A stretch of 64,000 bases of DNA from Aliiglaciecola sp. CAU 1673 (lineage in GTDB: Bacteria; Pseudomonadota; Gammaproteobacteria; Enterobacterales; Alteromonadaceae): positions 1 through 64,000 of the forward strand of contig NZ_JARHUG010000016.1 of the NCBI RefSeq assembly GCF_029223185.1, given 5' to 3'. Both the position numbers and the translations under genes were made by a program. Of this stretch, positions 1,110-26,788 are shown one piece after another (positions within the stretch are counted from its first letter, which is position 1; every line of letters starts with the position of its first letter). The notes below the pieces were generated by a model that worked only from the letters and a program-made list of their open reading frames with translations, was not told the origin of the DNA and searched no databases.

Positions 1110-2687
1110 ATGCAAGAATCAATGGTCACGGCATTATTTAAGAACTTTATGGGGCATGCCCCGGATTGGTATAAAAAAACCATCATCGCCTTTCTGATAA
1201 TCAATCCGGTCCTCTTCGTTATTAATCCTTATTTTGCCGGCTGGATGCTGGTACTGGAATTTATCTTTACCCTGGCCTTAGCCTTAAAGTGCTATCCCTT
1301 GCAGCCTGGCGGCTTGCTGGCGCTAGAGGCGGTTGCCATCGGCATGACCAGCCCCGAACATGTAAAGCATGAAATCTTCGTCAACATTGAGGTGGTGCTG
1401 CTGCTGATTTTTATGGTGGCCGGTATCTACTTTATGAAAGATCTGCTGCTGCACCTTTTTACCAAAATGCTGATCAAGGTGCGTAGCAAAACACTACTGG
1501 CGCTGTCCTTTACCTTTGCCTCTGCATTTTTGTCCGCCTTTTTGGATGCTCTTACGGTGATCGCCGTGATTATCGCCGTAGCCACAGGTTTTTATTCTAT
1601 CTATCACAAAGTGGCCTCCGGTAAGGATTATCACCATGACCACGATCATACTCAGGATGAGAACATGCCTCATCCAACTCGTGACGATCTGGAAGGTTTT
1701 CGTGGCTTTTTACGTAATCTGATGATGCACGCTGCCATTGGTACTGCCCTGGGCGGCGTGACCACCATGGTCGGTGAACCGCAAAACCTGATCATTGCCG
1801 AAAAGGCTGGCTGGAGTTTTATTGAGTTTCTGCTGCGCATGTCACCCATCACCCTGCCTGTATTGATCTTTGGCTTACTGACCACCGTTGTCGTGGAGAA
1901 AATGAAACTGTTCAGCTACGGCGAAACCATGCCAGAGACAGTCAGAGCTATCCTCACCGAATATAGCCGCTATGTGGATGAGAAGCGCACTAAGCGCGAC
2001 AGCGCCAAACTGTTGGTGCAGGCCCTTATTGCAGTTTGGTTGGTGGTCGGTCTGGCGCTGCACTTAGCCGCCGTCGGCATGATCGGTTTATCAGTGATTG
2101 TGTTAGCCACTATCTTCAGCGGCATCACCGAGGAACATCAAATTGGTAAGGCTTTCGAAGAGGCCCTGCCCTTTACCGCCCTGCTCTGTGTTTTCTTCGC
2201 AGTGGTAGCGGTAATTATCGATCAGGGCCTGTTTATGCCTGTGATTGACTGGGTACTCACCTACGAAGGTAAGACACAGATGGTGTTGTTCTACCTGGCT
2301 AACGGTGCACTGTCGATGATCAGTGACAACGTGTTTGTGGGCTCGGTGTATATCACCGAAGTCACCACCGCCCTTAAGCAAGGCCATATCACCCGTGATC
2401 AATACGACATGCTGGCGGTTGCCATCAACACCGGTACCAATCTGCCAAGCATCGCCACGCCTAATGGTCAGGCTGCCTTCCTGTTCCTGCTGACATCTGC
2501 CCTGGCACCACTGCTGCGTCTGTCCTATGGCCGCATGGTATATATGGCGTTGCCTTACACCGTGGTACTGACTCTGGTTGGTCTAGCGGCAACCTACTTC
2601 AGCCTGTATGAGATGACGGAGTGGCTATATCAGATGAATCTGATAGGCCATCACAGCGGCGTCACAGAAGTGCCATCAGGCCATTAA
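1110..2687 (+). CDS. nhaB: Na+/H+ antiporter NhaB
   Basis: A 525-aa inner-membrane antiporter that exports Na+ in exchange for protons, supporting pH and salt homeostasis. The sequence has about a dozen hydrophobic segments and NhaB hallmarks such as [48 protein letters not shown] and [28 protein letters not shown]. An AAGGAC ribosome-binding site lies upstream of the ATG. Two details differ from the E. coli protein as I recall it: a His/Asp-rich loop ([11 protein letters not shown], near residue 175) between membrane segments and a short His-containing C-terminal tail. Followed by a strong terminator. Confidence 0.97.
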
Positions 2688-24356: not shown

Positions 24357-24482
24357 TTAACCGAAATACTTCGTCCAAGCCAGCAGCACATGCAGTAAAG
24401 GCAATGCCACCATGGTCAATGCGCCAATCAAGAAATATGTACCGTTGAAAGGATCTTTAACTTGCTGATCGTCGTGATGCAT
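24357..24482 (-). CDS. Small single-membrane-segment protein (41 aa), unknown
   Basis: A short ORF beginning MHHDDQQVKDPFNGTYFLIG followed by a hydrophobic stretch ALTMVALPLLHVLLAW and ending TKYFG. The layout is a short charged N-terminus, one predicted membrane helix (about residues 16-36) and a tiny tail. No strong ribosome-binding site is visible. It lies between hvfC and apt on the same strand, 93 bp after hvfC. Its role is unknown; it could belong to the hvf locus or be independent. The well-formed hydrophobic profile argues for a real gene. Confidence 0.5.
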   Translation of the reverse strand: MHHDDQQVKDPFNGTYFLIGALTMVALPLLHVLLAWTKYFG

Positions 24483-24575
24483 GAACAGGATCTCACATTA
24501 AAATAAGCCGCAAATCTTAAAGCAAAGCCCATCTGATTCATAGCCTGGCGAATCAGATAATGGCTAACAGCACAA

Positions 24576-25313
24576 TTATTCCACTACCAGCACTTGTTTT
24601 CTAAGAAAGTTCTCTATGGCTTCCCTTGCCCCTTTTCTTACTTGGTCTTCGGGCAACTGGGGCAATTCTGAAACCAGACTCTGCAACAACACCTCTTCAT
24701 CAATTACACCATGCTGGTCGATGAGATTTAGTAGGTACGCATTGATTTGATTTATCTGTGTAAATTCGACCTTGTCCTCGTTATTGCGATGCACCACAAA
24801 AAAATAAGGGCCGGTTGGTTGTTCAGGTTTGAACGTGCTGGAGATCTGATGAACCGGATATTGATAACTCACTGCACAAGCCAACTGCGATACTGCCAGC
24901 TTTTGATAAGCTTGCCCCTGCCAAAACTGCTGCGGATCGGCTTCTTTGGCAATACTCACCGCCAGTTCAATCCACTCATAATGGGCCAGCTCTGCCATAA
25001 AAACAGGGTCATGGTCTTTAGGTCGGTACTCATTACTGAGGTACTCAACAAACTCTTTACTGATTTCGACAAAGTAAGGGGAGCGACAGGCATGCTCAGC
25101 GAAAAATTCCCGGCATAATGCTTCCCACTCTTCCTTGCTGTAAAGGGATTTGAGTACCGGAAATCCACTACTGATAAATCCCATGATATTGTTGAAGAAG
25201 AGCTCCCGATAAATGGCAAGTCGCCGATCTTCAATGTCTTTGGGTGCAGCATTGCGTAAAGGGTCACGCAAGTGCTCAACAAATACCAACTGAGTAGCAC
25301 GCAAATCCGACAT
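24576..25313 (-). CDS. hvfC: HvfC/BufC-type partner protein (DUF2063)
   Basis: 245 aa. The N-terminal DUF2063 domain (about 1-100) carries the family pattern RLAIYRELFFNNIMGFISSGFPVLKSL and WEALCREFFAEHACRSPYFVEISKEFVEYL; the C-terminal half contains HYEWIELAVSI and a second conserved region. Proteins of this family bind the RiPP precursor and present it to the DUF692 oxidase (established for Hvf/bufferin systems). The start ATG overlaps the hvfB stop (ATGA), indicating coupled translation. Confidence 0.9.
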   Translation of the reverse strand: MSDLRATQLVFVEHLRDPLRNAAPKDIEDRRLAIYRELFFNNIMGFISSGFPVLKSLYSKEEWEALCREFFAEHACRSPYFVEISKEFVEYLSNEYRPKDHDPVFMAELAHYEWIELAVSIAKEADPQQFWQGQAYQKLAVSQLACAVSYQYPVHQISSTFKPEQPTGPYFFVVHRNNEDKVEFTQINQINAYLLNLIDQHGVIDEEVLLQSLVSELPQLPEDQVRKGAREAIENFLRKQVLVVE

Positions 25314-26155
25314 CAAGCCCTCCGACCTTGGAGTAGCTGGTGCCGTTGTTGAATGTCATGGATTTTTTCAACTTCTTTTATCAACTCATTCAAAGGCGGA
25401 ATATTGAAATCCCGTTCCAGCAGCGTTGGAAAAATACCATGAGCTTGATAGGCAGCTTCGAGCAGAGCCCACACTTTGTCAATGACGTCACTGCCATGGG
25501 TATCAACAATCAAATCATCGGCTTCATTATAGTGTCCGGCAATATGCCCATAGGCAATTCGCTTCGTTGGCATGGCCTGAATGAAAGCAATGGGGTCATA
25601 GCCATGGTTGATGGAATTGACATAAACATTGTTCACATCGAGCAGCAACTCACAGTCAGATTCTTCAAGGATGGCAAGCGTAAATTCCTGTTCGCTCAAT
25701 TTCTGACCGGGCGCTGCATAATAGGAAACATTTTCTAAAATAAGCGGACGTTCAAGGATGTCTTGTACTTGCCTAACCCTGCCACTTACATAGGCAATAG
25801 CTTCTTCGGTAAAAGGGATCGGCATCAAATCGTACATATGACCGTTGCCTGAGCAATAACTAAGATGTTCGCTGTACTGTTCTATATGATGCATATTCAT
25901 AAAGGCTTTCACGCCCTTGATGAACTCCACATCCAGCGGATCCGGACTACCGATGGATAGAGAAAGACCATGTAGCTTAAAGGGATAGCGGGCAGTCATT
26001 TCCCGAAATTGTTTTTCGTACTTACCACCAAGCGTCATCCAGTTTTCCGGGGCGACTTCCCAAAACTGGACAGTCGAATATTCCCGGTTTAAAACCTCCG
26101 GAAACATGTCTCTGCGTAAACCGAGACCGACATCACCACCACTGCCTTTTACCAA
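25313..26155 (-). CDS. hvfB: HvfB/BufB-type multinuclear non-haem iron oxidase (DUF692, MNIO)
   Basis: 280 aa TIM-barrel enzyme of the MNIO family. Metal-ligand motifs are visible: LHGLSLSIGSPDP, YSEHLSYCSGNGH, LILENVSYYAAPG, LLLDVNNVYVNSINHG, AYGHIAGHYNEADDLIVDTHGSDVIDKVW and a late Glu in LLERDFNIPP. It should oxidise cysteine residues of the adjacent precursor. The start is a TTG at 26155 with a very strong GGAGG site 7 nt upstream; the next ATG would cut off the first conserved strand (VGLGLRRDMF). Precursor hvfA lies 57 bp upstream. Confidence 0.92.
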   Translation of the reverse strand: MVKGSGGDVGLGLRRDMFPEVLNREYSTVQFWEVAPENWMTLGGKYEKQFREMTARYPFKLHGLSLSIGSPDPLDVEFIKGVKAFMNMHHIEQYSEHLSYCSGNGHMYDLMPIPFTEEAIAYVSGRVRQVQDILERPLILENVSYYAAPGQKLSEQEFTLAILEESDCELLLDVNNVYVNSINHGYDPIAFIQAMPTKRIAYGHIAGHYNEADDLIVDTHGSDVIDKVWALLEAAYQAHGIFPTLLERDFNIPPLNELIKEVEKIHDIQQRHQLLQGRRA

Positions 26156-26212
26156 CGTCTTCCCTCCAAAAAGTAGGGCCGGACTAGGCCGGCCCGCGAT
26201 GACGAGAAAATC

Positions 26213-26611
26213 TTAGTGGGCGCCGCCGCACTTGCCTTCTTTGTCGGCCTTGCCTTCACCACATTTACCTTCGCCACATTTACCTTCTTTCTCGGCTTTT
26301 TTCCCTTCGCCGCATTTACCTTCGCCACATTTACCTTCTTTTTCGGCTTTTTTCCCTTCGCCGCACTTACCTTCGCCACACTTACCTTCTTTCTCGGCTT
26401 TTTTCCCTTCGCCGCATTTACCTTCGCCACACTTGCCTTCTTTTCCCTTTTCAGCACCACAGCTACCTTCCGCGGCTTGCTGCATATAACCTGAATCAAG
26501 TGTTTGCATAGTGAATGGATTGCTGTCTGCTGCGACTGCTACACCAGACAATGAACCGATGACAACGGCGCCTAGGGCTGAAGCGATAGTGGTTTTCTTA
26601 ATCTGTTTCAT
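26213..26611 (-). CDS. hvfA: HvfA/BufA-like RiPP precursor with nine EGKCG motifs
   Basis: 132 aa. A Sec-type signal sequence (MKQIKKTTIASALGAVVIGS, likely cut after AVA near residue 27) is followed by a short spacer and a Lys/Glu/Gly/Cys-only tail. The tail contains one EGSCG and nine EGKCG motifs arranged as four near-perfect repeats of a 17-residue unit, EGKCGEGKCGEGKKAEK, then a terminal EGKCGGAH; ten Cys in all. EGKCG cysteines are the sites that HvfB/HvfC enzymes convert to oxazolone-thioamide groups binding copper in described systems. The start at 26611 has an AGGAAAG site; a longer frame to 26713 is not supported. Confidence 0.9.
   Translation of the reverse strand: MKQIKKTTIASALGAVVIGSLSGVAVAADSNPFTMQTLDSGYMQQAAEGSCGAEKGKEGKCGEGKCGEGKKAEKEGKCGEGKCGEGKKAEKEGKCGEGKCGEGKKAEKEGKCGEGKCGEGKADKEGKCGGAH
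26225..26440. repeat. 51-bp tandem repeat coding the hvfA core motifs
   Basis: The DNA of the hvfA tail repeats with a 51-bp period (about four units), each unit coding two EGKCG motifs plus EGKKAEK. The copies are nearly identical at the DNA level with mostly third-base changes, which points to recent expansion or repeat-mediated copy-number change. It also creates long open frames on the opposite strand that are not genes. Confidence 0.85.
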
Positions 26612-26764
26612 TTTAACTTTCCTGATTGATAGTCCAACACTCTTTAGTAGGCCAGATAGGCACTTACAACAGGATAGACCATGAAAAGGGATGAAATATT
26701 TCAGCAGTGGCAAAAAACCTTCAGACGGCTAATTTTTTGCGACTAACACCAAGTTGGACCCAAT

Positions 26765-26788
26765 AAAAAAGCCCCCGAGGGGGCTTTT
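26765..26788. terminator. Strong terminator between the TonB2 operon and hvfA
   Basis: The stem GCCCCC / GGGGGC (26771-26776 with 26779-26784) is flanked by AAAAAA on the left and TTTT on the right. On the minus strand it starts a few bases after the stop codon of the TPR gene, so it ends the TonB2 operon before hvfA. Confidence 0.85.

Follow-up and report, generated by a model that had tools for sequence, protein, structure and literature searches.

Precursor peptides with EGKCG motifs, modified by a multinuclear iron oxidase (MNIO) and a partner protein, have been described from several bacteria. Antoine 2025 (PMC12452194) reports type-1 precursors built from 17-residue (51-nt) repeats with two EGKCG motifs each, and precursor lengths from 31 to 506 residues with a maximum of 58 cysteines. 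For fontiphorin, seven 5-thiooxazoles (5TO) were assigned, and a fusion binds up to four Cu (Gadgil 2026, PMC13097082). H. influenzae HvfA has six modifiable cysteines according to a 2026 preprint (PMC13419390), in which the full-length precursor, including its signal, is the preferred form. In the Microbulbifer system (PMC12538549) the thiooxazole was assigned tentatively, and MmrA-C were not detected in the cell, with or without copper, so that copper induction cannot be assumed for such loci.

The chemistry of these products has changed in print. Oxazolone-thioamide groups, which an initial annotation of the DNA studied here had named as the product, go back to the original 2024 assignment for H. 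influenzae, as cited in later papers, and the NCBIfam names still carry that chemistry. However, the oxazolin structure of H. influenzae was revised to 5-thiooxazole on the strength of alkylation-assisted HMBC, and the same approach assigned 5-thiooxazole to the Fontimonas and N. gonorrhoeae products (PMC13097082). The 2026 preprint, which calls the earlier work its own, takes over the revision (PMC13419390). Since the class is now assigned 5-thiooxazole in relatives, this part of the annotation is superseded and we give an oxazolone-thioamide product hardly any credence. By analogy with the relatives, the product of our locus would carry 5-thiooxazoles on its EGKCG cysteines, bind copper and reside in the periplasm.

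We analysed a 64,000-nucleotide stretch of DNA from Aliiglaciecola sp. CAU 1673 (hereafter the window). Its minus strand carries a three-gene cluster, hvfA-hvfB-hvfC, at 24576-26611 (Table 1), filed in the initial annotation as an hvfABC-type RiPP locus. Profile searches bear this out. HvfB passed the curated cut-off of NCBIfam NF003818 (437.2 bits, cut-off 360), HvfC that of NF050145 (290.2 bits, cut-off 142) and HvfA that of the KCGExKCG-repeat domain NF050137 (106 bits, cut-off 19.5). Against the HvfA equivalog NF050188, the precursor scored 43.3 bits, below the cut-off of 95; judged by these profiles, it is a member of the HvfA family and not a strict HvfA equivalog. The DUF692/MNIO and DUF2063 genes of the annotation are thus real. 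Its locus start, 24357, however, belongs to a different ORF of 41 aa, whose stop codon it marks. The TTG start of hvfB has GGAGGG ahead of it. Among 15 aligned HvfBs, H62, H97, E141, D173, H184, H204/H208, D218, H220 and E247 are invariant, and we take these positions to be candidate iron ligands. HvfB aligned to PDB 3bww (E=2.9e-74) and HvfC to PDB 3dee (E=4.3e-9), two structures tied to captophorin-type biosynthesis by their gene neighbourhoods (PMC13097082). The genome, 4.26 Mb in 36 contigs, contains a single MNIO and a single EGKCG locus. The locus is an intact, ordinary member of a known family and adds one more species to it.

Table 1. Features of the hvf locus and its surroundings in the window.
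Feature	Position	Strand	Basis or remark
hvfA, 132-aa precursor with signal peptide, leader, repeat array and ten Cys	26213-26611	-	Translation and NCBIfam
hvfB, MNIO (DUF692) oxidase, TTG start	25313-26155	-	NCBIfam, PDB match
hvfC, DUF2063/NGO1945_C partner protein	24576-25316	-	NCBIfam, PDB match; overlaps hvfB stop
Leader box LDSGYM, HvfA residues 38-43, proposed docking element for HvfBC	26483-26500	-	Leader comparison
Repeat array, nine EGKCG, residues 58-129, 51-nt unit	26225-26440	-	Tandem Repeats Finder, translation
Promoter-like element TGAAAT-N17-GGTCTA, ECF-sigma-like shape	26675-26703	-	92 nt before hvfA ATG
Terminator-like hairpin GGGCCGG-N6-CCGGCCC, then T-rich stretch	26176-26195	-	Between hvfA and hvfB
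Terminator-like stem, 12 pairs, directly after hvfC; possible operon end (weak)	24529-24560	-	No excess over shuffles
41-aa single-span membrane ORF before apt, outside the hvf cluster	24357-24482	-	Also before apt without HvfB over cut-off

The translated precursor consists of a Sec-like signal, judged present by eye as the annotation had it, a leader (NPF...LDSGYM), one EGSCG, which holds the first cysteine, and nine EGKCG motifs. Both the motif count and the total of ten cysteines agree with the annotation, as does the 51-bp repeat: Tandem Repeats Finder gave a 51-nt unit in 4.4 copies with 90% matches (26224-26443). Eight of the nine EGKCG motifs form four pairs within the 17-residue unit, and Lys-rich spacers separate these di-Cys cassettes. 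All three complete units translate to EGKCGEGKCGEGKKAEK; the pairwise comparisons show 3, 2 and 3 synonymous changes and not one non-synonymous change. Since the units vary only synonymously, the repeat is more than chance and the array behaves like selected coding sequence. The nine EGKCG pentamers show 62 synonymous and no other pairwise differences, a count that is circular because the pentamers were picked as EGKCG; the whole-unit count is less so. An AlphaFold2 model of HvfA (20-row alignment) had a mean pLDDT of 41.4 and no secondary structure, which makes it unusable; at this very low confidence it did not reproduce the beta-helix published for a mid-size relative.

Each of the four other genomes of the genus has the locus, with 11, 14, 16 and 16 [E/D]GKCG motifs (11, 14, 10 and 16 when only EGKCG is counted), so the nine of the window are the fewest among the five. 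The precursors of three of these four are identical, at corresponding places on the contigs, to those of Bowmanella dokdonensis, Bowmanella denitrificans and Bowmanella yangjiangensis, which makes the window's organism probably a Bowmanella or a near relative. The annotation had called the array an amplified, high-capacity sponge; repeats are the published norm for the first type of this family, and nine is the low end of the genus.

The gene order hvfA-hvfB-hvfC-small ORF-apt-dnaX recurs across many Alteromonadales genera. The small ORF, 41 aa long, follows hvfC in most apt-linked loci and was considered as a fourth member of the cluster or as a substitute for DoxX. We rejected this candidate because the ORF also stands before apt in six loci of genomes that have no HvfB over the cut-off (L094, L095, L098, L102, L104 and L105); by this distribution, it goes with apt and not with hvf. 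As annotated, a DoxX-type HvfD is missing from the locus: there is no DoxX gene there (contig C8), and the three DoxX matches of the genome lie on contigs C24 and C7. Across 81 neighbourhoods, with flanks of about 4 kb that were often truncated by contig ends, 15 had DoxX relatives, their cluster identity confirmed with Pfam. None of these 15 was among the 46 apt-linked neighbourhoods, so absence is the rule for such loci.

Of 63 distinct hvfA-hvfB intergenic regions (the double entry of the window removed), 36 had a G+C hairpin and 16 of these a T-rich tail, counted without a shuffle control. Terminator-like sites were not in excess in the region of the window (3 versus 2.4 expected). The hvfA-hvfB hairpin may lower the expression of the enzymes relative to that of the precursor.

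Upstream of hvfA, we found a conserved two-block element. Among 66 readable upstream regions, 41 belong to enzyme-linked Alteromonadales loci, and 37 of these carry TGAAAN-N16/17-GGTC (N17 in 31, N16 in 6). Four lack it and other groups have it in 1 of 18, which makes the element lineage-limited. As it was first spotted by eye, the count on the same data is descriptive; a Markov control gave a mean of 0.3 and a maximum of 2 out of 41 in 200 rounds. The element was absent before apt (0/46), hvfC (0/81), hvfB (0/79), TPR (0/8) and tonB (0/8), where the hvfB and hvfC sets took in all groups. GGTCTA is unlike the -10 box of sigma-70 promoters, and a pair of blocks this far apart resembles an ECF promoter. 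We therefore regard the element as probably a promoter for an alternative (ECF-type) sigma factor. Such control of hvf would fit H. influenzae, where an operon that encodes DUF proteins and a DoxX-like protein is under the control of RpoE2, an ECF factor (PMC7907618).

Genome-wide, TGAAA-N18-GGTCTW was not enriched, with 28 matches in five genomes where the reversed control had 57; any regulon is therefore small. When the matches were read by hand, hvfA was the only target common to all five genus genomes. An AhpC/TSA redoxin gene before recG was matched in two of the five (L170 and L171, the window's genome and G002). One genome had a match at a catalase-family gene (L172). No sigma gene could be tied to the element among 119 Sigma70_r4_2 matches in five genomes, of which 20 neighbourhoods in two genomes were read; best element scores of 9-10 of 12 in nearly all 20 look like chance. 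One ECF-DUF3379 pair (L177, L190) shows a 10-of-12 match whose place is the same in the two species; as the match abuts the probable start codon, the pair is only a lead. An open-access literature search found no paper on DUF3379 or on ECF promoters of peroxiredoxins in Alteromonadales, and the main text of Antoine 2025 (PMC12452194) does not use the word 'promoter' or discuss the element. The conserved element offers a handle on which stress turns on these peptides in Alteromonadales.

We then compared 247 genomes of the order. The HvfA domain was present in 70, HvfB over the cut-off in 70, and both in 63. Enzymes kept without the Cys motifs, a combination that the annotation had named as counter-evidence, were looked for in the seven HvfB-only genomes: in all five that were read (G068 and G102 were left out), a Cys-bearing hvfA-like gene, mostly of the single-motif type, stands beside hvfB. 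The converse case, a Cys-rich HvfA without HvfB, does occur, in seven genomes from six genera of the window's family (G010, G076, G138, G151, G164, G198 and G238). All seven are rated 100% complete, and G076 and G138 are single contigs. PF05114 matched nothing at E <= 1 in G076, G164 and G198 and had a best match of only E = 0.09 in G151, so that four of the seven lack an MNIO match at E <= 0.05. The remaining three (G010, G138 and G238) encode different MNIOs at other places in the genome, beside which partner genes were recognized by eye (L195-L198; DUF2063 confirmed for L195 and L197) and, in L195, also by eye, a Cys-rich precursor of another type. In an Apt+DnaX tree (38 sequences, FastTree, rooted on L052) the seven genomes form one clade (support 1.0) nested among enzyme-bearing lineages, for which a single loss is the simplest account.

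The enzyme-less precursors retain NPF (7/7), 9-14 cysteines and, in 5/7, the promoter element. What all seven lack is the GY leader box. Of the 63 enzyme-linked precursor rows, 62 have it and one has GF instead; L060 and L142, both among the rows, are the same locus, and 25 of the 88 linked loci gave no precursor owing to contig ends or the filter. Fisher's test gives p 7e-9 for this contrast, a value that ignores kinship and is not to be taken at face value. We propose the GY box as the docking site for HvfBC. When a short FonA substrate was scanned with single alanines, every change before the core was tolerated (PMC13097082). Core units of the enzyme-less precursors, matched without requiring Cys, had pS values of 0.45-0.79 and pN values of 0.000-0.082; purifying selection thus maintains the cysteines without HvfB. 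The five enzyme-less HvfAs scanned all fell below the NF050188 cut-off (28.1-72.7 bits), and four of them scored above the window's precursor. MNIO-less cases are already known in number, with 67 of 2583 Buf_EGKCG genomes in Antoine 2025 (PMC12452194), whose accessible text holds no clade, leader or promoter analysis of them. As a caution, NCBIfam gives the name 'oxazolone/thioamide-modified' to proteins even where the search of their genome found no MNIO.

A tentative account, which we hold to be possible but would not call probable, is that HvfBC and the GY box were lost once and that the EGKCG array lived on as a bare, unmodified thiol scaffold, mostly under the same stress-type promoter. 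If so, the persistence of the array after enzyme loss would mean that it serves an independent function, one that can be separated from thiooxazole chemistry, and the GY box would mark the precursors that are truly modified. The enzyme-less clade serves as a natural knockout in which scaffold and chemistry come apart, and it predicts a docking box.

The same clade bears on how the window's own array should be read. It might work mainly as a thiol protein whose unmodified cysteines bind Cu(I) or buffer redox, with HvfBC only improving it. In favour of this are the EGKCG-type arrays that the clade maintains without HvfB over the cut-off, under low pN relative to pS and largely behind the same promoter element, and the four genomes without an MNIO match. 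But the clade has also lost the GY box and so looks derived, while the window's species has its enzymes intact and syntenic. Moreover, the MNIO genes with partners elsewhere in three of the seven genomes weaken the case, the search for modifying enzymes across the seven whole genomes covered MNIO only, and one loss event is one data point. We consider a mainly unmodified array in the window unlikely. The repeats might alternatively be cut by a protease at the KKAEK spacers to release a small secreted metallophore, a scavenger instead of a periplasmic buffer. The Lys-rich stretches between the di-Cys cassettes would suit such processing, and Gadgil 2026 (PMC13097082) leaves both mature forms possible, one polypeptide or smaller digested peptides. 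However, the three genes of the cluster include no protease, exporter or receptor. The TPR and TonB genes that neighbour hvfA lie past a terminator-like site at 26767-26788; they were seen adjoining hvfA in 8 loci for which the flank reached TonB. A cleaved metallophore is therefore improbable as well.

Very probably, the window carries an HvfABC-type (oxazolin/captophorin, Buf_EGKCG) operon that makes a stress-induced periplasmic Cu(I) buffer via 5-thiooxazoles. Of this reading, our analysis shows the gene identities, the selection on the repeats, the conserved element and the synteny. HvfC would dock the HvfA leader, and HvfB, as an iron oxidase, would act on one EGKCG motif after another and make 5-thiooxazoles of their cysteines ahead of Sec export. 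Once in the periplasm, the mature repeat protein would bind several Cu(I) ions and act as a buffer induced by stress. Transcription would probably start from TGAAAT-N17-GGTCTA under the alternative sigma factor, and the hvfA-hvfB hairpin may hold the precursor above the enzymes.

Relative to the literature found, the locus type is known, while the promoter element, the hvfA-hvfB hairpin and the enzyme-less clade are new; a partial review of the open-access literature did not turn up these or the GY box. The locus is not of the methanobactin kind, since HvfB is no MbnB-type MNIO (33.9 bits against TIGR04159, cut-off 325). The bufferins Buf1 and Buf2 use a related type of MNIO and partner, but HvfB scores 269.8 bits against BufB, short of the cut-off of 310, and the DUF2282 precursor of Buf1 has no match in the window's genome. 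The hvf operon of H. influenzae has a DoxX-like fourth gene (HvfX, PMC13419390), unlike the window's locus. The Microbulbifer mmrABC (bulbicupramide) locus is also a three-gene cluster, with five to eight cysteines in EGKCG units; the available text of that paper does not mention DoxX, and the lineage differs from that of the window (PMC12538549). From type 1 of Antoine 2025 (Buf_EGKCG/oxazolin, MNIO with PME-type 1; PMC12452194) the locus departs in the absence of DoxX, as do all 46 apt-linked loci. With the captophorins (fontiphorin FonABC, gonophorin and oxazolin HvfABC; PMC13097082) it has in common the EGKCG motif, the pair of MNIO and PME1 and the homologues of 3BWW and 3DEE, and where FonA has seven modified sites, HvfA of the window has nine EGKCG motifs, known from its sequence.

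Seven genomes encode an HvfA-type EGKCG protein while lacking any HvfB (the MNIO oxidase) over the cut-off, and these genomes form a single clade. The Cys arrays are retained in their HvfA proteins; a leader GY box, the proposed docking element for HvfBC, was found in none of the seven. When five of these proteins were scanned (L097, L137, L138, L139 and L141), all exceeded the cut-off of NCBIfam model NF050137, which names them 'oxazolone/thioamide-modified RiPP metallophore'. Since four of the five corresponding genomes contained no MNIO at E <= 0.05, this name may be an over-annotation.

Mostly single EGKCGG(D/H/N)KAxK units, not di-Cys units, make up HvfA at four further loci (L042, L046, L047 and L060, the last also listed as L142), and HvfBC is present at each.

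Features and their locations
Feature	Location	Strand	Remark
HvfA-type EGKCG gene	L096/L141 (G076)
HvfA-type EGKCG gene	L097 (G164)
HvfA-type EGKCG gene	L136 (G010)
HvfA-type EGKCG gene	L137 (G138)
HvfA-type EGKCG gene	L138 (G151)
HvfA-type EGKCG gene	L139 (G198)
HvfA-type EGKCG gene	L140 (G238)
AhpC/TSA redoxin gene before recG	L171, about 1500-1562		TGAAAG-N17-GGTCTT
AhpC/TSA redoxin gene before recG	L170, about 1500-1562		TGAAAG-N17-GGTCTT
41-aa single-span membrane ORF	window 24357-24482	-	conserved across Alteromonadales, upstream of apt

The 41-aa ORF matches no Pfam family. Sequences resembling the promoter-like element of the window hvfA occur elsewhere: in two species, one lies 32 nt 5' of the ATG of the redoxin gene. 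CGAAAG-N17-GGTCT accompanies an ECF sigma gene paired with a DUF3379 gene (L177, G000:C12, on which the Pfam check was made, and L190, G002:C2), and in both species it occupies an identical position, adjoining the probable start codon of the sigma gene.
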